Positions 16,973-26,266 of a stretch of 48,537 nucleotides of DNA are shown here, in pieces (within the stretch, counting starts at the first letter, position 1; each line of letters opens with the position of its first letter). The stretch covers positions 1 to 48,537 of the forward strand of contig OMOD01000101.1 in the NCBI GenBank assembly GCA_900290255.1, given 5' to 3'. Position numbers and translations under genes: made by a program. The notes under the pieces were generated by a model, which ran no database searches, had not been told where the DNA came from, and saw only the letters and a list, made by a program, of their open reading frames with translations. Source of the stretch: Candidatus Sulfotelmatobacter kueseliae (GTDB taxonomy: Bacteria; Acidobacteriota; Terriglobia; Terriglobales; Acidobacteriaceae).

Positions 16973-17731
16973 TTAGTAGTACGTACGGGGCCCAGACTCC
17001 GTATAGGGGTACTGATCTCTTTCCGTGACACCCAAAGCATTCAGCAGTTGCTCGGGTGAAACAGCTCTGCAGCGAAAATCAAGCTCATGACAGTTTCGGA
17101 GAGCGTTGACGAATTTCTTGTCGATCATGAGAAAGAAGTCCAATCCGTTAGCCTCTGCCGTCCAAAGGTGGAATGCGTCGGGATAATGTGTTCTTGCGAG
17201 GTGTCGGCACAGCGACTTAAATCGCCCTAGCTGAGTTAGGTTCGTCTGCTCGGAAGCAGGCAGCTTCGCCCAGAACTCGCGGGCGCGCGGTAGCAGGGGT
17301 TCGGGTAGGTTTAGGAGGAAATCACAGAACTCAAGCAACTCTTCCTTCTTCAAATAGTAGTCAAAGTCTATGTTCTGGCGAAACCTTGGCCTGTTTACGG
17401 CAGCTTGGCATTTCTTAATCTCAACATCCAAAAACAAATCTCCGAAGGTATTAGCCATTCCACGGCTAGCCCTCATCTCCTCAAACTCAAGCTCCGAATA
17501 GGTGTAGGGTACAAGTGCACCCTCGTGAGTCATCCGCACTATCGTTGGTAAACACTCGACCTGCTGTCGAAGCCACGGATCATGCGGTAGGGGTTTCGGT
17601 TGCCACGCTGCAATGCGACTGACGAGATCACGGTTTGCCCATCTGATTCTCCTTTCGATCTGTGCCTCGTGTGTGAACACGCCACGACGGAGCACGCTCA
17701 GGTCTATGAGCACTGTCTTAGCGCGGGTCAC
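16973..17731 (-). CDS. PIN-domain protein (putative ribonuclease)
   Basis: The N-terminus VTRAKTVLIDLSVL gives the first PIN aspartate. The C-terminal half has YPDAFHLWTAEANGLDFFLM followed by IDKKF, matching the conserved D..H..A...G.D.fLt.D pattern of PIN nucleases. Between them is an unusually long helical insert, making a protein of about 252 residues instead of the 130-150 of VapC toxins. I place the start at GTG 17731, overlapping the brnA stop by 14 nt. The frame continues upstream to 17785 inside brnA. Coupling to an antitoxin gene suggests a toxin or accessory nuclease, but a longer PIN protein may have another role. The region looks less GC-rich than its neighbours, consistent with lateral acquisition. 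Confidence 0.65.
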   Translation of the reverse strand: MTRAKTVLIDLSVLRRGVFTHEAQIERRIRWANRDLVSRIAAWQPKPLPHDPWLRQQVECLPTIVRMTHEGALVPYTYSELEFEEMRASRGMANTFGDLFLDVEIKKCQAAVNRPRFRQNIDFDYYLKKEELLEFCDFLLNLPEPLLPRAREFWAKLPASEQTNLTQLGRFKSLCRHLARTHYPDAFHLWTAEANGLDFFLMIDKKFVNALRNCHELDFRCRAVSPEQLLNALGVTERDQYPYTESGPRTYY

Positions 17732-18020
17732 GTGCCTTGCCTCGCCGCACAGCACGGCTTCCAATCTCCGCGCTTGCCATCGCATGCCTCAGCAGGAAGT
17801 TAACTCTCGTCTGATAGCCTCTGCCGTACCCCTTCAGCCATTCCAGAACGTCGGCATCCAAGCGCATCGTCACGGCCTTCTTTGGCGGACGGTAGAACTT
17901 GCCCATCTCGGCCTTGCTCCAGTCCACCACCTCCGGCATATCAGTGAGGTCGATATCTTCGTCTCTGATTGCCGCAAGAGCGGCGATGTCTCGTTTTTGT
18001 TCCTTGCTTAGCTTCCTCAT
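17718..18020 (-). CDS. brnA: BrnA-family antitoxin
   Basis: About 100 residues from ATG 18020, which is preceded by AAAGGAG. The longer frame from GTG 18035 adds five residues that are really the ribosome site. The C-terminal half has the BrnA ribbon-helix-helix signature: KKAVTMRLDADVLEWLKGYG then GYQTRVNFLLRHAM (about residues 47-81). BrnA neutralises the BrnT ribonuclease and represses the operon by binding a palindrome. Here it lies directly downstream of a frameshifted brnT and overlaps the PIN gene. The antitoxin itself looks intact. Confidence 0.85.
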   Translation of the reverse strand: MRKLSKEQKRDIAALAAIRDEDIDLTDMPEVVDWSKAEMGKFYRPPKKAVTMRLDADVLEWLKGYGRGYQTRVNFLLRHAMASAEIGSRAVRRGKARDPR

Positions 18021-18289
18021 ATGCTCTCCTTTCACGCGGAGTCGCCGCGCGGGCCGAAATGATTCTTATGACTTCTTCGTTACCCCGCTCAGAGGATTTG
18101 TGAACCACAAAGAGCACGGTACCCGGGCTCACTGACCCAAGCGTGATCCAACGCTCTTCCTCGCTTGCCGATTCGTCGCGCTGGGTTAACGCATGCAGAT
18201 CGTCGAAGACAAGGGTCGCCGTTTCGAAGCGAAATCCATGTTTGAGTAAGTTTCGCCGGTCTCTTTTCGTCGTCCCATTCAAAACGCAT
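17941..18289 (-). pseudogene. brnT: BrnT-family toxin gene with a frameshift near its 5' end
   Basis: The canonical BrnT N-terminus MRFEWDDEKR reads from ATG 18289, but the rest of the toxin (NLLKHGFRFETATLVFDD, then the core ending RIISARAATPRERRAYEE) is in the next frame and runs to 17941. The frames join at about 18259, where one extra base (within the CCGG after AGA on the minus strand) would account for the shift. Read across it, the protein matches a normal BrnT of about 110 residues. The last 80 nt overlap brnA. It is either a disabled toxin retained with its antitoxin, or a base error in the assembly. The long single-frame ORF from 18318 has a non-BrnT N-terminus and is unlikely to be native. 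Confidence 0.72.
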
Positions 18290-18316
18290 AGCCGTTTCCG
18301 GCGTCGCAGTAGTTCC

Positions 18317-18360
18317 AAGATACCCTGGAATCGTGCGCTATGTCAATACATGTGTATGTA
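18317..18360 (-). promoter_or_regulatory. brnT-brnA promoter with adjacent palindromic operator
   Basis: Minus strand: -35 TTGACA (18346-18341, perfect), 18-nt spacer, -10 TATCTT (18322-18317), about 28 nt before the brnT ATG. Immediately upstream of the -35 is the palindrome TACAT-ACAC-ATGTA (18360-18347), well placed as the operator for BrnA autoregulation. The promoter call is by motif; BrnA binding is inferred from the family. Confidence 0.6.
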
Positions 18361-19764: not shown

Positions 19765-19927
19765 ACTGGTTGCCAGACAAAAAGGTTGCCTTATGCCATC
19801 AATTCCGGAAAGGAACTGTCATTCTTGACGGTCCCCCAATTCTCCAGTTGCGTTTTTTTGACCGGGTGTACAATCGGCCTTAGAAAGCACTTGGTTGCGC
19901 ACTTCGTAAAGCAAGGCCGAGGCGCTC

Positions 19928-20980
19928 ATGAACGTCCACGTCAGTTACCGGGTTCAAAAAACTCCCAGCGTAGAAAAAGACATCCAGTACCAGATCGAGA
20001 AACTGCGCAAACGCCTGCAGGTCTTCCGTCCCGAACTGATTCACCTGAAGGGAGTTGTGGAAGAAGTATCCGCCCGCGAGGGGACCAGTGTTTCGCTGAA
20101 CCTGCGCTTGCCTTCGGGCCAGCTGGCGGTGCAGACTTCCGCGCCGACCGCGGCCGCTGCGGTGAAGAGCGCATTTGAAGATCTGCTGGAGCAGGTCAAC
20201 AAGCACAAGGAGATTTTGCGTTCGTCCCACAAATGGCAGCGCGGACGCCGGGGCGACAGTGCCCGCCCCGGTATCACGGTGTCCGAGGTTCCGTTCGAGC
20301 AGACGTTAGCGGCAGTCTACCCCCCGATGGTCTCTGCCGACGACATTCGGTCCTACGTGAACGTGAATCTGGCACGCCTGGAGCGCTTTGTCGAGCGCGA
20401 AATCTACTTCCGCGAGGCGCTGGAGGCCGTGCCGCCCGACACGCTGATCAAGGATGAAGTGATTGATGAGACTATCGCTGCGGCTTTGGGCAATGGTCAG
20501 GAAAAGCCTGAGCGGCTGGCGCTTGAACCCTGGCTTTACCGGCTGGCCCTGCAGGCCCTCGACGAGCTTTCCCGCACCGATGAAAGCAATAGCAACGCGG
20601 TATGCCTGGAAGAATCCACGCGCCGCCGCAACGTCAAGGCCAGCGACGAAGCCGAGCTGCAATTTCATCAGCCCGACGAATCCATCACCGGCGAGACGGT
20701 GATTCCTGACGCTCGCGTGGCTACGCCCGAGCAGATCCTGGCTTCCGATGAGATGCTGCGCCTGATTGCGTCCGCGCTGCGCGATGTGGGTTCCGGTCCG
20801 CGCGAGGCCTTCATCCTGCACGCCATCGAAGGCTTTACGGTTGACGAGATTACGGTGATTACCGGTCATCCGGCCGACCGCGTATTCCAGTTCATTTCTG
20901 CTGCGCGCGAGCACCTGCGCTCAGCACCGGGCCTGGCTGGAGAGTTCCGGGCCCGCCTCGCCCCGACCGGCGCCGCTTAG
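19928..20980 (+). CDS. Ribosome hibernation (HPF/RaiA) domain fused to ECF sigma-like regions
   Basis: A 350-residue protein in three parts. Residues 1-97 are an HPF/RaiA/YfiA-type domain (MNVHVSYRVQKTPSVEKDIQ, ending SAFEDLLEQVNKHKEILR), the fold that binds the 30S decoding centre of idle ribosomes. Residues about 138-215 resemble sigma region 2 (ARLERFVEREIYFREALE, then EPWLYRLALQALDEL). Residues about 268-332 resemble sigma region 4 (REAFILHAIEGFTVDEITVI, then VFQFISAAREHLR) and align well with region 4 of the ECF factor at 1247-1864. The recognition helix lacks the basic KS/R pattern of the true ECF factor, so DNA binding may be lost. ATG 19928 follows GAGG. It is the first gene of a pair with the release-factor-like gene. 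Confidence 0.83.
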   Translation: MNVHVSYRVQKTPSVEKDIQYQIEKLRKRLQVFRPELIHLKGVVEEVSAREGTSVSLNLRLPSGQLAVQTSAPTAAAAVKSAFEDLLEQVNKHKEILRSSHKWQRGRRGDSARPGITVSEVPFEQTLAAVYPPMVSADDIRSYVNVNLARLERFVEREIYFREALEAVPPDTLIKDEVIDETIAAALGNGQEKPERLALEPWLYRLALQALDELSRTDESNSNAVCLEESTRRRNVKASDEAELQFHQPDESITGETVIPDARVATPEQILASDEMLRLIASALRDVGSGPREAFILHAIEGFTVDEITVITGHPADRVFQFISAAREHLRSAPGLAGEFRARLAPTGAA

Positions 20981-21008
20981 ACACAATTTCAATTTCTGGG
21001 GGATATCC

Positions 21009-22241
21009 ATGAGTATTACTCGCGAACAAGTCCGAGAGTTGGCCGAATTTCAAGATGCACAATGCTCAGCTGTGAGCTTTTATTTCCAACCTTCCACACC
21101 CCGCAACAAGGCGCACAAAGAAGACACGATTCTGGTCAAAGACCTGGCCCGCGAAGCGGTGCGCAACCTGGAAACCAAGAGCAAGAAGGAGCCTGCCCGC
21201 GCCGACATTGAACGCATCCAGCGCCTGTCGGGAGAACTGCGCAGCAATGGCGCCCATGCCAAAGCCGTGTTCGCCTGCGCTGCACAAGATATTTGGCGGG
21301 AGTATGATTTGCCCGCCAGCCTGCCGGGCACACAACTTTTCGTAGACCGGCATTTTCATTTGAAGCCGCTGGCCCGGCTCGTGGGCGCATTTCCGCGGCT
21401 GGGCGTGGTGCTGGTGGACCGCCACCGGGCGCGCATTTTCGACCTTCGCCTCGGCGAGTTGACCGAGCGCGAAGGCCTGTTTCAGTCGCTTTCCCGCAAG
21501 GGGCGCAGCGATGGCTATGCCGGCTACGACGGCGGCCACGCCCAGCGCAGGGTCGAGGACGAAGCGCGCCAGCATTTCAAGGCGGTCGCCGAAACGCTGA
21601 AGGAATCTCTGGAAAAAGGCGTATTCGAAAAGTGGATTCTCGGCTGTCAGGATGTTCACCGTTCGCAATTGGAGCCACAGCTGCACCCCTATGTGAGTCA
21701 GACCCTGCTGGGCCGCTTCCAGGCCGATATGACTCGCGTCACCGCCGATGAGATCCGCACTCGCGCCCAGCAGATCGTAGAGCAATGGCAAGCGGAGCGT
21801 TGCCGCGAACTGGTCAGCCAGGTCTTAAGCCAGGCGCGCAGCAACGGCCGCGGCGCGACCGGACTGCGCCGCGTATTGCGGTCGCTCGAAATGGGAGAAG
21901 TGCAGGCCCTGCTGATTGGCGAGAATCTTCAGGCGCATGCTGTGGAATGTTCCGGTTGCGGCCACCTGGATGCGCATATCGTAAGCTTCTGCCCGGTCTG
22001 CGGCCGGACCACGCAGGAGATTGTAGACGTCGGCGAAGCGGTTCTCCCTTGGGCGATTCGCCGGGATATCGAGACCTTCTATGTGAAGGATGATCCGGAG
22101 TTCGACAAGGTCGGCAATATTGCGGCGCTGCTGCGCTTCCGGGCAGCCAAAGTGCAGCCAATTACTTCCTCCGCCGCGGACGATCTGGCCAGAGCAGGGG
22201 CGGCGTATCCGGGACGTCTGCGAAGGTTTGCCAGCCGGTGA
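21009..22241 (+). CDS. aeRF1/Pelota-like bacterial protein (Balon/baeRF type)
   Basis: This 410-residue protein shows the three-domain plan of archaeal-eukaryotic release factor 1 relatives. The N-terminal domain is about 1-125. The middle domain (about 128-265) carries VVLVDRHRARIFDLRLGEL and the loop YDGGHAQRRVEDEARQHF. The C-terminal domain has a zinc ribbon (C314, C317, C328, C331) and the VGNIAALLRFR strand that corresponds to the GAILR motif of Pelota/eRF1. The catalytic GGQ is GGH at 175-177, so peptidyl-tRNA hydrolysis is not expected. Bacterial homologues include Balon, which occupies the A site of hibernating ribosomes. The gene lies 28 nt after the HPF-sigma fusion, with GGGGGA before its ATG, so the two are probably co-transcribed. 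Confidence 0.8.
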   Translation: MSITREQVRELAEFQDAQCSAVSFYFQPSTPRNKAHKEDTILVKDLAREAVRNLETKSKKEPARADIERIQRLSGELRSNGAHAKAVFACAAQDIWREYDLPASLPGTQLFVDRHFHLKPLARLVGAFPRLGVVLVDRHRARIFDLRLGELTEREGLFQSLSRKGRSDGYAGYDGGHAQRRVEDEARQHFKAVAETLKESLEKGVFEKWILGCQDVHRSQLEPQLHPYVSQTLLGRFQADMTRVTADEIRTRAQQIVEQWQAERCRELVSQVLSQARSNGRGATGLRRVLRSLEMGEVQALLIGENLQAHAVECSGCGHLDAHIVSFCPVCGRTTQEIVDVGEAVLPWAIRRDIETFYVKDDPEFDKVGNIAALLRFRAAKVQPITSSAADDLARAGAAYPGRLRRFASR

Positions 22242-22561
22242 AAGTAGCGGGACGACCCGGTGCTTAACACGGCCTGGCAGACTGCGCTGGCGTTCCATCC
22301 TCGATTTATACGAGCGTAGTGCCGCCGTGGGCGTTGGCTGAGGTGCCCGTGGATTCCTTCGTCCCTCACCCTGCCAAGCTACCTGCGCCCAGCAGCATTA
22401 CATTCGCCGACATGCCAGGTGTGACTTCGTCATCGGGCGTGAACCTTGAGCAGGCTCGCTGCTCCGGAACCAGTTCAAAAACGGACTTGAGACCCGCGAT
22501 GGAGAAGCCATAGAATAGGCCCGCTTTCAAATGACCGATCAGTCAGTCGGAAAGGGTGCCC
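22242..22561. other. Intergenic gap holding a promoter, no gene seen
   Basis: Small frames here (for example 22319-22513) have no ribosome site and no protein-like composition. The only supported signal is the promoter at 22487-22516 serving the receptor gene. A loose dyad CCGATCAGTCAGTCGG lies between that promoter and the start codon. Confidence 0.6.
22487..22516 (+). promoter_or_regulatory. Sigma-70-type promoter for the first Oar-like receptor
   Basis: TTGAGA (22487-22492), 18-nt spacer, TAGAAT (22511-22516); five of six bases match in each box. The predicted transcript starts near 22523 and has a leader of about 40 nt with GGAAAGGG before ATG 22562. Confidence 0.55.
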
Positions 22562-25500
22562 ATGTCTGCCTATGATCTCCGCCGTACCGCCGCGAACTCC
22601 TCCCGCTTGTTCTGGATGATCTTCTCGGCTGCGTTATTGATCTCGCTGCTATTGTGCATGCCCGTGTTATCCCAAACGACCGCCAGTCAGGGCAGCATTC
22701 AGGGAACGGTGAGTGACCAGACCAACGCGGTTGTAACCGATGCGATTATCACGATCGCCTCTCGCACCACAGGACAGGTCGTTACCGTCAAGACATCCTC
22801 CGCGGGTACGTACAACTCCGGCGGGTTGCCCGTCGGCGACTACCTGGTGCGCGTGCAGGCCAAGGGATTCAAGACGGCGCAGCTCACTATAGCGGTGCAG
22901 ATTGCGGTGACCTCCTCGGGCAACGTGAAGCTGGAAGTTGGCCAGGAGACCACCACGATCGATGTGCAGACTTCGGCGATCGTAGTCAACGCCGAGCAAT
23001 CCACGGTGCAGGGGGTGCTCAACGCCGAACAAATTGACAATATGCCGGTCAACGGGCGCAGCTTTCTCGACTTGGCGCAACTCGAACCCGGCGTCCAGAT
23101 GCAGGATGGAGGAAACTTCGATCCCACGAAGGTCGGTTACAACTCGCTTTCCATCAATGGCGATTACGGCCGAACGCCACGCATCGAGGTAGATGGTCTC
23201 GACGTCAGCGACGAGACGGTGGGCACGACTACGCAAAACGTTGCGTTAAGTTCCATTCAGGAATTCAATATTGGCCGCTCTTCGTTCGATATTTCCTCGG
23301 AGATCACCGGCACCGGAACCGTCAATGTGGCGACACGTTCTGGCACGAACGACTATCATGGCCAGGCTTTTTACCAGTTCCGTGACTACCGCGCCGGCTT
23401 CGCCAACCTTCCCGGAGGCATCTCTCCACAGTTTCAGCGCAACCAGTTCGGCGGCCGTTTTGGTGGCGCGATCATCAAGAACAAGCTGTTTTTCTTCATC
23501 GATTCGGAACGGCTCAAGCAGGATACGGCTTACGACGTGGTGGTGGGGCCTCCCTTCCAGGCCTTGACCCAGGGCCTTGACTCTCCCTTCAAGACCTCGC
23601 AGGCCAGCGGCCGGCTGGATTGGCAAGCCACGGATAAAATCCGTGTGTTTTACAAATTTGCCTACGACTGGAACTACTCGACGAATTCGGCCGGCTACGG
23701 ATTCTCGCTTTACGCCAACCGCGACTACACACCGACACATGCCGTCGGCATCGACATCAATGAGGGCAACTGGTCGCACACCATCCGCATGGGGTTCTTC
23801 AAGTTCCACAACCAGATCATCGGCGCCACCAACGGCCAGCCTGCCAGCATCAATCCTTTTCCCTCAGTCGAAGTTGGTTTCAACGACGTCAGCCTGACCA
23901 CGGGACCGAACAACCTGGCGCCGCAGCAGACCCTTCAGACGAACAAGCAACTCAAGTACGATGCCAGCCGCGTCTGGGGAGCGCACATTATTCGCTTTGG
24001 AGCCACGCTCAACGGCATCGTTACCGGCGGATTCGCCTCGTTTAACGGCCTGGGACCCTTCCTGAATACCTATGTCAACGCGGCGGGTTTGTCGGCAGGC
24101 GTCCAGCCTACGCCGTTCTATTCGTGCGGTCTTACCAATTTCGCTGGTTGCTCCACCAACATCGGCGACTATCCCTTGACCAGCGCCTACATCGGCAACG
24201 GGCAAGGCTTCAGCGACGAGTTGCCAGCCTTCGGCTATCCCGCGGGTGGTTTGTTCGATGACCGGTTAGAAGCCTACGTTGGAGATTCCTGGAAGATCAA
24301 ACCAAACCTTACGGTGAACTATGGGCTGCGCTACCTGCGCGATACCGGCCGCACCGATGCTGACTTGGCCCCCATCCCCTGCTCGGCTGTGACGCAGTCA
24401 ATTCTGAGCGACGGCTATCCGGGCTGTACGGGCAACCTGCTGGATCAGTGGGGGCCGGGATTGGGCAACCGCATTCGCCAGCCCAACCTCAACTTTGCTC
24501 CGCAGGTTGGATTTGCCTGGGATCCGTGGCACAACGGGAAAACGTCGATCCGCGGCGGAGGGGGGCTCTACTACGAAAACAACATCTTCGAAAACGTGTC
24601 TTTCGAGCGCGAAAACAAGCTGGCGACAGGTTTGTTCAATCAGATTCCTTTCCTCTATTGCGACCCGAACGCTGCCGGTACCTCGCCCAACCCGTCGAAT
24701 CCCTATTACCAGTCGCTGCCCTTCCCGATGCCCGGTGGCCCTCCGGTTACCTCCGTTGATGGCTATGATTTGGCCACTCAGGTTTGCTACTCGCCGCTAG
24801 GGCCGACCGGCAGTTACGAGGGCGCAGCCAAAGCGATCGCCGATCTACAGGCCGAGTATGTGGCGGCAACCAACGCCGTTGGTACTAAGGGTCCGAATCC
24901 GAATTTTGTGGGCAACACTCTGACCCTTGGCTACCCCTACTACCCGAACTTCCGCACTGCCCGCTCTTACCAGATGAATCTTGGTTTTGAGCGCCAGATC
25001 GGCAAGGGGGGCGTGTTGAGCGTGGATTATTTGCGCAACATTGGCCTGCACTTTCAGGTTGGCATCGACGTGAACCGCATTGGTGATTCCCGGTATTTGA
25101 ATCTGGCGGCGGCGCAGAACGCCATTGCCAGTACGCTAGCGGCTTGTCAAGTTTCCACCATTGACCAGGCGATACAAGGTTGCCCAGGGCTGTATCCCGC
25201 GACTCCCACCACCCCGGCCGGACCCGCCAGCATCACCGATTTCGCCAACAACGGCTTGGACTCCGGGAACGTCTACAACGCGGGATACTCTGTTTACTAT
25301 GCGTGGGGTGGACAGTTTAACCCCGATACCGGCGCGGCTTTTGCTGGCGTGAACCCCAGTCTCGGCAACTTGAACATGAACTATCCTATGGGCCGCTCGG
25401 TTTACGACGGCTTGCAAAGCGAATACCGGTTGCAGGTCGCGGATCCTTTCCGCGGGGTTAAGAATCTCAACCTCCAACTCAACTACACGCTGTCCCGCTT

Positions 25501-26266
25501 CGAAAGCAATAACGGTTACGATCAGCACTTCACCACCAACGCCTGGGACTACCGCAATCCCACGGCCTTCATGGGCCCCACGCTGCAGGATCGCACCCAC
25601 CAGTTCAAGTTCGGAGCCATCTTTGACATTGCCCATCACGGCCCTCGCCTCAGCCTGATTGGCAGCTTTGCCTCACCCCAGCCCTCTGACCTGAGAATAC
25701 CGGTGTATACGAGCACGGGAGAAATCTTCCGTTCCGACCTGACCGGAGATGGTACAACCGGCGACTTCCTGAACACCGCCAATGGCATCGGCCATCCGGG
25801 AACGTTTATGCGCTCGATTACTCCCAAGAACCTGGATGCTTACCTCCAGAACTTCAACAACACCGTGGCTGGCACGCTCACGCCCGCGGGGCATGCGTTG
25901 GTCAACGCTGCCTTGTTCAGGCCGGATCAGCTGGTCTCCCTGGGGGCGGTAGTTCAGCCCATCCAGGTTCCGACCGGGAGCAATGCCGGGAATGGCTACT
26001 ACAAGGATGTTGATACTGTTCTGAGTTGGCCTTTCAAGATTCGCGAAGGGATCTCCATTCTGCCCAGCATTTCGTTCTTCAACGTATTCAATTTTGTGAA
26101 CTACGGGACTCTGGGCGGCGTTTTGTTGGGAGGGCCCGGGGCCATCAATGGTACGCCGGCCGGGGTGAACGACGCGACCAACACGATCCGCATCGGCCGC
26201 GGCAGTGGCGTGTTTGCAGTCGGCGCTCCCCGGGAAGCAGAATTCGGCCTGCGCATCGATTTCTAG
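22562..26266 (+). CDS. Oar-like TonB-dependent-receptor-type outer-membrane protein with carboxypeptidase-regulatory domain
   Basis: About 1234 residues from ATG 22562, with a signal peptide (about 15-38). A CarboxypepD-regulatory-like domain follows (about 44-125: GSIQGTVSDQTNAVVTDAII, then GTYNSGGLPVGDYLVRVQA), then a plug-like region (LNAEQIDNMPVNGRSFLDL; LSINGDYGRTPRIEVDGLDV) and a long barrel that ends GLRIDF with a terminal phenylalanine. These giant receptors are hugely expanded in Acidobacteria and are thought to import or sense large polymers. The ligand is unknown. A Tat-exported amidase follows 43 nt downstream and may form a functional unit with it. Confidence 0.9.
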   Translation: MSAYDLRRTAANSSRLFWMIFSAALLISLLLCMPVLSQTTASQGSIQGTVSDQTNAVVTDAIITIASRTTGQVVTVKTSSAGTYNSGGLPVGDYLVRVQAKGFKTAQLTIAVQIAVTSSGNVKLEVGQETTTIDVQTSAIVVNAEQSTVQGVLNAEQIDNMPVNGRSFLDLAQLEPGVQMQDGGNFDPTKVGYNSLSINGDYGRTPRIEVDGLDVSDETVGTTTQNVALSSIQEFNIGRSSFDISSEITGTGTVNVATRSGTNDYHGQAFYQFRDYRAGFANLPGGISPQFQRNQFGGRFGGAIIKNKLFFFIDSERLKQDTAYDVVVGPPFQALTQGLDSPFKTSQASGRLDWQATDKIRVFYKFAYDWNYSTNSAGYGFSLYANRDYTPTHAVGIDINEGNWSHTIRMGFFKFHNQIIGATNGQPASINPFPSVEVGFNDVSLTTGPNNLAPQQTLQTNKQLKYDASRVWGAHIIRFGATLNGIVTGGFASFNGLGPFLNTYVNAAGLSAGVQPTPFYSCGLTNFAGCSTNIGDYPLTSAYIGNGQGFSDELPAFGYPAGGLFDDRLEAYVGDSWKIKPNLTVNYGLRYLRDTGRTDADLAPIPCSAVTQSILSDGYPGCTGNLLDQWGPGLGNRIRQPNLNFAPQVGFAWDPWHNGKTSIRGGGGLYYENNIFENVSFERENKLATGLFNQIPFLYCDPNAAGTSPNPSNPYYQSLPFPMPGGPPVTSVDGYDLATQVCYSPLGPTGSYEGAAKAIADLQAEYVAATNAVGTKGPNPNFVGNTLTLGYPYYPNFRTARSYQMNLGFERQIGKGGVLSVDYLRNIGLHFQVGIDVNRIGDSRYLNLAAAQNAIASTLAACQVSTIDQAIQGCPGLYPATPTTPAGPASITDFANNGLDSGNVYNAGYSVYYAWGGQFNPDTGAAFAGVNPSLGNLNMNYPMGRSVYDGLQSEYRLQVADPFRGVKNLNLQLNYTLSRFESNNGYDQHFTTNAWDYRNPTAFMGPTLQDRTHQFKFGAIFDIAHHGPRLSLIGSFASPQPSDLRIPVYTSTGEIFRSDLTGDGTTGDFLNTANGIGHPGTFMRSITPKNLDAYLQNFNNTVAGTLTPAGHALVNAALFRPDQLVSLGAVVQPIQVPTGSNAGNGYYKDVDTVLSWPFKIREGISILPSISFFNVFNFVNYGTLGGVLLGGPGAINGTPAGVNDATNTIRIGRGSGVFAVGAPREAEFGLRIDF

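Follow-up and report, generated by a model that had tools for sequence, protein, structure and literature searches.

An HPF domain fused to a sigma-factor-like module and encoded next to a baeRF family 10 protein in Acidobacteriota

The contig OMOD01000101.1 of Candidatus Sulfotelmatobacter kueseliae (assembly GCA_900290255.1), analyzed here over positions 1 to 48,537 (hereafter, the window, meaning this whole 48,537-nt stretch), encodes a 350-aa protein, P0001, that combines an N-terminal ribosome hibernation domain of the HPF/RaiA (S30AE) family with a C-terminal module resembling regions 2 and 4 of sigma factors. Its gene is followed, after 28 nt and on the same strand, by the gene for a 410-aa protein, P0002, a member of baeRF family 10 within the Balon superfamily. 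The interpretation favored here, to which we give slightly less than an even chance, is that of a stress-hibernation operon in which the tail of the HPF protein serves as a protein-docking mimic of a sigma factor.

An earlier note on this DNA saw a real feature, two tandem genes 28 nt apart, and both open reading frames (ORFs) were found where it had placed them (stop codon at 20978-20980, next ATG at 21009). It took the wrong part for the new one, considering the two ribosome-directed families to be normally unlinked. Adjacency of baeRF and HPF genes is already in print: as far as the available portions of these papers go, Burroughs and Aravind described conserved baeRF-HPF neighborhoods in 2019 and proposed joint action on the ribosome (PMC6514570), and the 2024 Balon paper reported raiA as the most frequent neighbor of Balon genes and placed Balon together with RaiA on the same ribosomes (PMC10901736). 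The more novel part is the HPF-sigma fusion. No description of this architecture was found in a literature search of open-license PubMed Central papers, and its cross-phylum spread, the QPDE motif in its linker, and its company of stress genes apparently have not been published in such papers either.

Domain architecture of the fusion protein

The Ribosomal_S30AE match in P0001 covers residues 9 to 97 with 30.5 bits, above the Pfam cutoff of 23.7, and this domain has a predicted beta-alpha-beta3-alpha fold. Both S30AE and Sigma70_r4_2 were matched at E ≤ 0.01 in all 27 aligned sequences, the window protein included. The fusion resembles long HPFs (S30AE plus S30AE_C) in having an N-terminal domain, a linker, and a C-terminal module, but this module is sigma-like, and no Ribosom_S30AE_C dimerization domain is listed for P0001 among matches up to an E value of 10. 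A separate true long HPF of 204 aa, with both S30AE and S30AE_C, is encoded on contig C157 of the same genome, so the fusion is not a replacement for the normal HPF. By reading, the long HPF gene appears to lie downstream of an rpoN-like gene.

A sequence search returned 47 loci, of which 46 belong to Acidobacteriota, many of them labeled Candidatus Sulfotelmatobacter; the remaining one is a sigma4-only match. The counts given below leave out L079 (sigma4 only), L097, L096, and L133 to L150 except L144 (HPF only), L174 (2 bases), and the split or truncated fusions L100, L257, and L259. Loci that did not differ from an already counted one over the first 200 aligned residues were treated as duplicates and dropped.

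The sigma-like tail

The tail of P0001 scores below the Pfam cutoffs for PhyR_sigma-like (25.7 versus 27) and Sigma70_r4_2 (21.0 versus 25.7), and the NCBIfam profiles of extracytoplasmic function (ECF) sigma factors, which reach residues 174 to 332, also stay below cutoff. Sigma70 region 4 is found above the cutoff in some homologs, e.g., L132, L176, L243, and L260. No region 2 profile is listed for the window protein, and Sigma70_r2 was reached at E ≤ 0.01 in only 1 of the 27 aligned sequences; the sigma2-like region contains AF2 helices at residues 137-164, 175-187, and 196-215. The VIA alignment rows across the sigma-like part span about residues 136 to 343, with the caveat that VIA rows mainly cover residues 1-108 and 267-336, so that residues 109-266 are less tested. 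The domain families named in the earlier note (HPF plus sigma-like, and aeRF1/Pelota-like) are thus borne out by profile matches, those to sigma factors being below cutoff in the window protein.

The -35 contact residues of ordinary ECF factors are missing from this module. The -35-reading motif K-[ST]-R-x-x-R, a criterion derived from the 6 ordinary ECF sigma factors compared here (from loci L237 to L242), is present in all 6 of them and in none of the 114 distinct fusions, and the region-2.2 Gln, again found in 6 of 6 ordinary ECFs, is replaced in each of the 33 fusions hand-picked as representatives. Since both features have been lost and the scores are PhyR-like, a PhyR-like sigma mimic appears likelier than a working sigma factor. 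Two observations weigh against this conclusion: one homolog, L177, exceeds the curated ECF cutoff of TIGR02937, and a basic helix is retained in some homologs.

Alternatively, the fusion could be a genuine DNA-binding ECF-type sigma factor gated by its HPF domain through sequestration on (or release from) ribosomes, so that the ribosome state would set a stress regulon. We consider this unlikely. It would account for the TIGR02937 score of L177, for the Sigma70_r4_2 matches in all 27 aligned sequences, for the sigma2 and sigma4 regions being both recognizable and under purifying selection, and for a conserved promoter-like block, GGGTGTA[CG]AAT, which precedes the fusion, in its exact form, at 33 of the 37 aligned loci. 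It is at variance with the loss of the -35 motif and of the region-2.2 Gln, with the single Sigma70_r2 match, and with the lack of a regulon signal: the block has two copies in the whole source genome (none for the reversed control). In 10 relatives it is rare as well, with 1 to 4 exact copies per genome versus 0 to 2 for the reversed control, and it also precedes unrelated genes, a weak reading because any start codon within 250 nt was accepted. The idea of a self-recognized promoter or regulon was rejected on these grounds; the block is probably an ordinary, general promoter element.

The anti-anti-sigma factor PhyR, which is not known to read promoters, appears to resemble the C-terminal part of the fusion in both its sigma-like fold and its sequence. 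The fusion differs from it in the added HPF domain and in the lack of a receiver domain, for which no Pfam match is listed for P0001. Further, the search for NepR was negative in the source genome (among 14 control genomes, only Caulobacter was positive), and the PhyR-NepR pathway itself was rejected on this basis.

A weak pointer comes from L243, where the fusion is followed after 10 nt by a 95-aa zf-HC2-like protein (E = 0.0049, below cutoff), which we take to resemble zinc anti-sigma factors, and then by baeRF10. In two fusions other than L243, STAS-domain proteins come next. The genome of L243 (G772) encodes a second fusion paralog, L260, accompanied by a STAS gene.

The baeRF10 partner protein

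P0002 matches the Pfam family baeRF_family10 with a score of 75.7 (cutoff, 27.1), and the family is matched by all 28 aligned sequences, the window included. The eRF1_3 match in its C-terminal part is weak (E = 0.0071, below cutoff), but each Cys residue of the zinc ribbon is present in 65 of the 66 distinct baeRF sequences. The predicted fold is that of aeRF1, with Balon and Msmeg1130 as the structurally closest proteins. Balon from P. urativorans and the mycobacterial Rv2629/Msmeg1130 resemble P0002 in combining this fold with the absence of NIKS and GGQ; they differ from it in that structural alignments show only 14 to 18% identity and the best family of P0002 is baeRF_family10. Against the NCBIfam Balon equivalogs NF052287 to NF052289, P0002 scores 53.7 versus 320, 52.3 versus 480, and 45.8 versus 330, all far below the cutoffs. 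Accordingly, the description of this protein as a Balon-like homolog in the earlier note is correct at the level of the Balon/baeRF superfamily and does not extend to Balon proper. Balon-like hibernation factors are characterized by an HP motif at the decoding center and a bL27 trap; by reading of the translation, residues 1 to 110 of P0002 contain no His-Pro dipeptide.

The same note also proposed ribosome rescue, and this part, in the sense of peptide release, is not supported: neither NIKS nor GGQ occurs in any of the 66 distinct baeRF sequences. At the candidate catalytic position, residue 179, these orthologs have Glu in 36 cases, Gln in 28, and Asp and Lys in one each, with the alignment of this loop being uncertain and the residues just ahead of it (165-173) being modeled with low confidence; the following residue, Arg180, is present in all 66. 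Because NIKS and GGQ are lacking, Arg180 and the zinc-binding Cys residues are kept, and position 179 is Glu or Gln, baeRF10 seems better described as a non-releasing plug of the ribosome than as a release factor.

It is quite improbable, in our estimate, that baeRF10 is an alternative peptidyl-tRNA hydrolase with a VLRF-like GGxxQ loop, which would turn the operon into a rescue module rather than a hibernation module. The reason to consider it is that the window protein itself reads GGHAQ, at odds with a non-releasing plug and resembling the GGxSQ pattern of the VLRF-1 families; the catalytic Gln of baeRF family 10 is also said to be well conserved in the available part of the paper that describes both (PMC6514570). 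Nevertheless, Glu is commoner than Gln at position 179 of the orthologs, next to the invariant Arg, and a catalytic release factor with a VLRF-type Gln was rejected for this reason.

The QPDE linker motif and selection on the tail

The sigma2-like and sigma4-like parts are connected by a segment with the motif [FYW][FYWH]QPDE, followed in many homologs by an acidic stretch of the LEDL type. Counted strictly as QPD[DE] (the looser variants YQFDE, YLPEE, and HQPGE, added post hoc, are not in the figures), it is present in 93 of the 114 distinct fusions. These comprise all 32 fusions of the same genus, 21 of 23 from other genera of the family, all 17 from further named contigs, 15 of 16 from other Acidobacteriota, and all 8 from Proteobacteria. 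It was not seen in the 14 fusions of the sister family, the 3 of family f8, and the 1 of family f6, nor in any of the 6 ordinary ECF sigma factors compared. Conservation across phyla within a linker predicted to be disordered suggests that QPDE is a binding motif. The f6 fusion (L144, genome G365) is a distant, partial one, cut by the contig end, that carries the YQFDE variant.

Among 12 close sequences (66 pairs, restricted to those with dS < 1.5), the median dN/dS is 0.073 for the HPF domain (46 pairs), 0.060 for the sigma2-like region (23 pairs), 0.073 for the QPDE stretch (40 pairs), and 0.106 for the sigma4-like region (47 pairs). Purifying selection, as judged from these ratios, acts on all parts of the fusion, including the sigma region. 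In view of this and of the retention of QPD[ED] in Proteobacteria and other Acidobacteriota, it is very unlikely that the fusion is simply a short HPF with a functionless remnant as its tail, a possibility that the loss of the DNA-contact residues and the HPF-only homologs in family f7 and in L096 might suggest.

Conservation of the gene pair

Scoring was limited to full fusions followed by 400 nt or more of sequence. On this basis, baeRF is the next gene on the same strand in all 30 scorable loci of the same genus (gaps of 28 to 84 nt), in 18 of 23 loci from other genera of the family (12 genera; gaps of 10 to 69 nt), and in 14 of 15 loci from further named contigs. Outside the family, the corresponding figures are 0 of 14 in the sister family, 2 of 3 in f8, 1 of 16 in other Acidobacteriota (where 313 nt separate the fusion from the baeRF10 gene that follows it), and 0 of 8 in Proteobacteria. 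The adjacency on which the earlier note had built its module is thus common within the family and rare beyond it. Contamination of the source genome is 8.46%; given that 32 of the 33 distinct same-genus loci carry the full fusion and all 30 scorable ones have baeRF next to it, the pair is neither a chance arrangement nor a binning artifact.

The M20 peptidase gene located upstream of the pair in the window recurs at 14 of the 21 loci on named contigs and at none of the 18 from other genera (all 39 having been selected for carrying the pair), so the pair outlives its surroundings. In L096, from a relative in the same class, an unfused 122-aa HPF gene is followed after 37 nt by baeRF, which looks like a simpler version of the arrangement. 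The generality of the fusion has its limits: 2 of 36 other genomes of the genus have no fusion match (G009 and G032, 72% and 82% complete), and no match of fusion length was seen in g18, g20, g22, and g24, which are large genera of the family.

A search with the baeRF alignment detected the family in 3 of 32 chosen genomes, all carrying the pair. Among the genomes searched, the 19 whose fusion has no baeRF neighbor yielded no baeRF at E ≤ 0.001, a threshold that more distant baeRFs could escape. A role of the tail as an adaptor for baeRF was rejected, fusions without a baeRF neighbor being common and no baeRF having been detected at this threshold in these 19 genomes.

Phylogenetic inertia without joint function, suggested by shared ancestry and by the absence of baeRF at 5 of 23 other-genus and all 14 sister-family loci, is the least probable explanation considered here, since the pair is kept in 18 loci of 12 genera where the upstream neighbor was not found, baeRF also pairs with an unfused HPF (L096) and with the fusion in f8, and wide baeRF-HPF linkage has been published (PMC6514570 and PMC10901736, available parts).

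Phyletic distribution and genomic neighborhoods

Judging by sequence matches, the fusion represents a cross-phylum family that mostly lacks a baeRF partner outside the family of the window. In the sister family of the same order, it was detected in 13 of 14 genomes searched, and in 12 of 14 loci the ORF after it looks like a lytic transglycosylase gene (checked with Pfam for L087 only). According to the match table, two-part matches are found in 37 of 399 genomes of the same class (for 3 of these, confirmation came only from the fetched loci), plus one partial match, and a survey of 396 genomes outside the class revealed near full-length matches in 14 and partial ones in 3.

In PLSDB, 25 plasmid records match the fusion, 20 of them over 80% or more of its length; these 20 listed matches show 23.5 to 30.2% identity and all come from alpha- or betaproteobacterial genera. 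Six plasmid proteins were scanned, and all 6 had both S30AE and sigma-4 matches, above cutoff in 2 of 6 for each domain. On plasmids of Burkholderia and Paraburkholderia, the fusion gene is flanked by Hsp20 genes on one side and by groES-groEL-dnaK on the other. In Paracoccus, Shinella, and Roseomonas, ftsH and an AAA ATPase gene precede the fusion, and hdeD lies downstream; the Paracoccus ATPase is ClpK-like (1603.8 bits; cutoff, 1900). In Sphingobium, hdeD comes after the fusion, with a yfdX gene further on. The sole annotation in the Methylorubrum stretch is yfdX1, and the Cupriavidus stretch has none. The genes around these Proteobacterial fusions code for ClpK-like, FtsH, HdeD, Hsp20, YfdX, and cation:proton antiporter proteins, a setting that resembles tLST, the locus of heat resistance; the window is not an island of this type.

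Several fusions of other Acidobacteriota are preceded by a gene for a YhaM-like OB-HD exoribonuclease (L256, positions 1192-2181; upstream ORFs in L247, L249, L254, and L259). This assignment was checked for L256 only, where YhaM is the best NCBIfam match with 222.8 bits, below the cutoff of 460. Staphylococcal YhaM has reportedly been tied to hpf mRNA in a 2024 paper. In L245, L247, L248, L249, L250, L251, L254, and L256, an aminotransferase-like ORF comes after the fusion (Pfam and NCBIfam data for L256 only), and in several of these loci the next ORF is a putative RNA methyltransferase.

Possible function of the pair

Small molecules and separate regulators are the usual explanation for how stress transcription is coordinated with the parking of ribosomes. 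A conserved protein in which a hibernation domain is physically linked to a sigma-fold module, and which occurs in at least two phyla, often beside chaperone and protease genes, is a candidate for a direct, testable link between the two. By analogy with Balon, baeRF10 would occupy the A site of idle ribosomes without releasing the peptide, and the HPF domain could be expected to enter the mRNA/tRNA channel of the 30S subunit of the same ribosomes. In place of the dimerization domain of long HPFs, the fusion would expose a flexible linker and the sigma-fold module, which no longer has the residues for reading the -35 box and therefore most likely acts as a mimic and docks an anti-sigma factor or the RNA polymerase core, tying ribosome idleness to stress transcription.

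Balon genes are often located beside raiA, and the baeRF10 gene likewise adjoins a gene for an HPF domain, in this case an HPF fusion. A joint role in hibernation, as proposed in the earlier note, appears likely by this analogy, given the conserved pair and the presence of Balon together with RaiA on ribosomes (PMC10901736, available part). The baeRF-HPF neighborhoods described previously represent the same pairing, but a sigma-like domain on HPF is not mentioned in the available portion of that paper (PMC6514570). The archaeal HPF/RaiA-CBS fusion HibA (PMC13324472) similarly combines HPF with a second domain and lacks the long-HPF tail; it differs in being archaeal, with a C-terminal HPF domain joined to CBS domains, and the accessible part of its description mentions no sigma-like fusion. 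The same paper also surveyed the domains of bacterial HPF fusions.

A bolder version, which is speculative and rather doubtful as a whole, would make the HPF-sigma proteins an undescribed cross-phylum class of ribosome-docking sigma mimics. Their QPDE linker and sigma fold would bind either an anti-sigma factor or the core of RNA polymerase; a single protein would thereby link the idling of ribosomes with stress transcription, or park the two machines together, and in one acidobacterial family it would be teamed with a Balon-like plug of the A site. For experimental work, the QPDE motif offers a precise mutational target, and the pairing with baeRF10 provides a ready-made two-factor system in which to examine whether HPF cooperates with a plug of the Balon type.

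Features of the locus

The coordinates of the features discussed above are listed in Table 1.

Table 1. Features of the fusion-baeRF10 locus (window coordinates)
Feature	Position	Strand	Basis
Promoter-like block GGGTGTACAAT, 53 nt ahead of the first ATG	19864..19874	+	Conserved in relatives
Gene 1, HPF-sigma-like fusion (P0001, 350 aa)	19928..20980	+	ORF, profile matches, alignments
HPF/RaiA (S30AE) domain, residues 1-100, conserved K92-H93-K94 and R98	19928..20227	+	
Linker 1, residues 101-135, mostly low pLDDT	20228..20332	+	pLDDT < 50 at 102-129
Sigma2-like helical region, residues 136-216	20333..20575	+	Sub-cutoff ECF profile, AF2 helices, VIA rows
FHQPDE motif, residues 246-251, low-pLDDT linker	20663..20680	+	Alignments, motif counts
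Sigma4-like region, residues 267-344; usual residues for -35 contact absent	20726..20959	+	Pfam, AF2, alignments
Intergenic gap, 28 nt, GGGGG run ahead of the second ATG	20981..21008	+	Sequence
Gene 2, baeRF family 10/Balon superfamily (P0002, 410 aa)	21009..22241	+	ORF, profile and structure matches
baeRF_family10 central (release-factor-like) domain, residues 117-253	21357..21767	+	Pfam
Loop G175-G176-H177-A178-Q179-R180, counterpart of the catalytic-loop region	21531..21548	+	Ortholog alignment
eRF1 domain 3/Pelota-like domain, residues 267-377, zinc ribbon C314, C317, C328, C331	21807..22139	+	

The operon is followed in the window (22556-26266, plus strand) by a gene for a large beta-barrel protein of the outer membrane that contains a carboxypeptidase-regulatory-like domain; this gene was seen close to the pair at 1 of the 21 loci on named contigs and at none of the 18 from other genera. 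A BrnT-BrnA type II toxin-antitoxin pair (Pfam E values, 6.9e-20 for BrnT_toxin and 4.3e-16 for BrnA_antitoxin) is encoded at 17721-18318 on the minus strand, some 1.6 kb ahead of the fusion gene.

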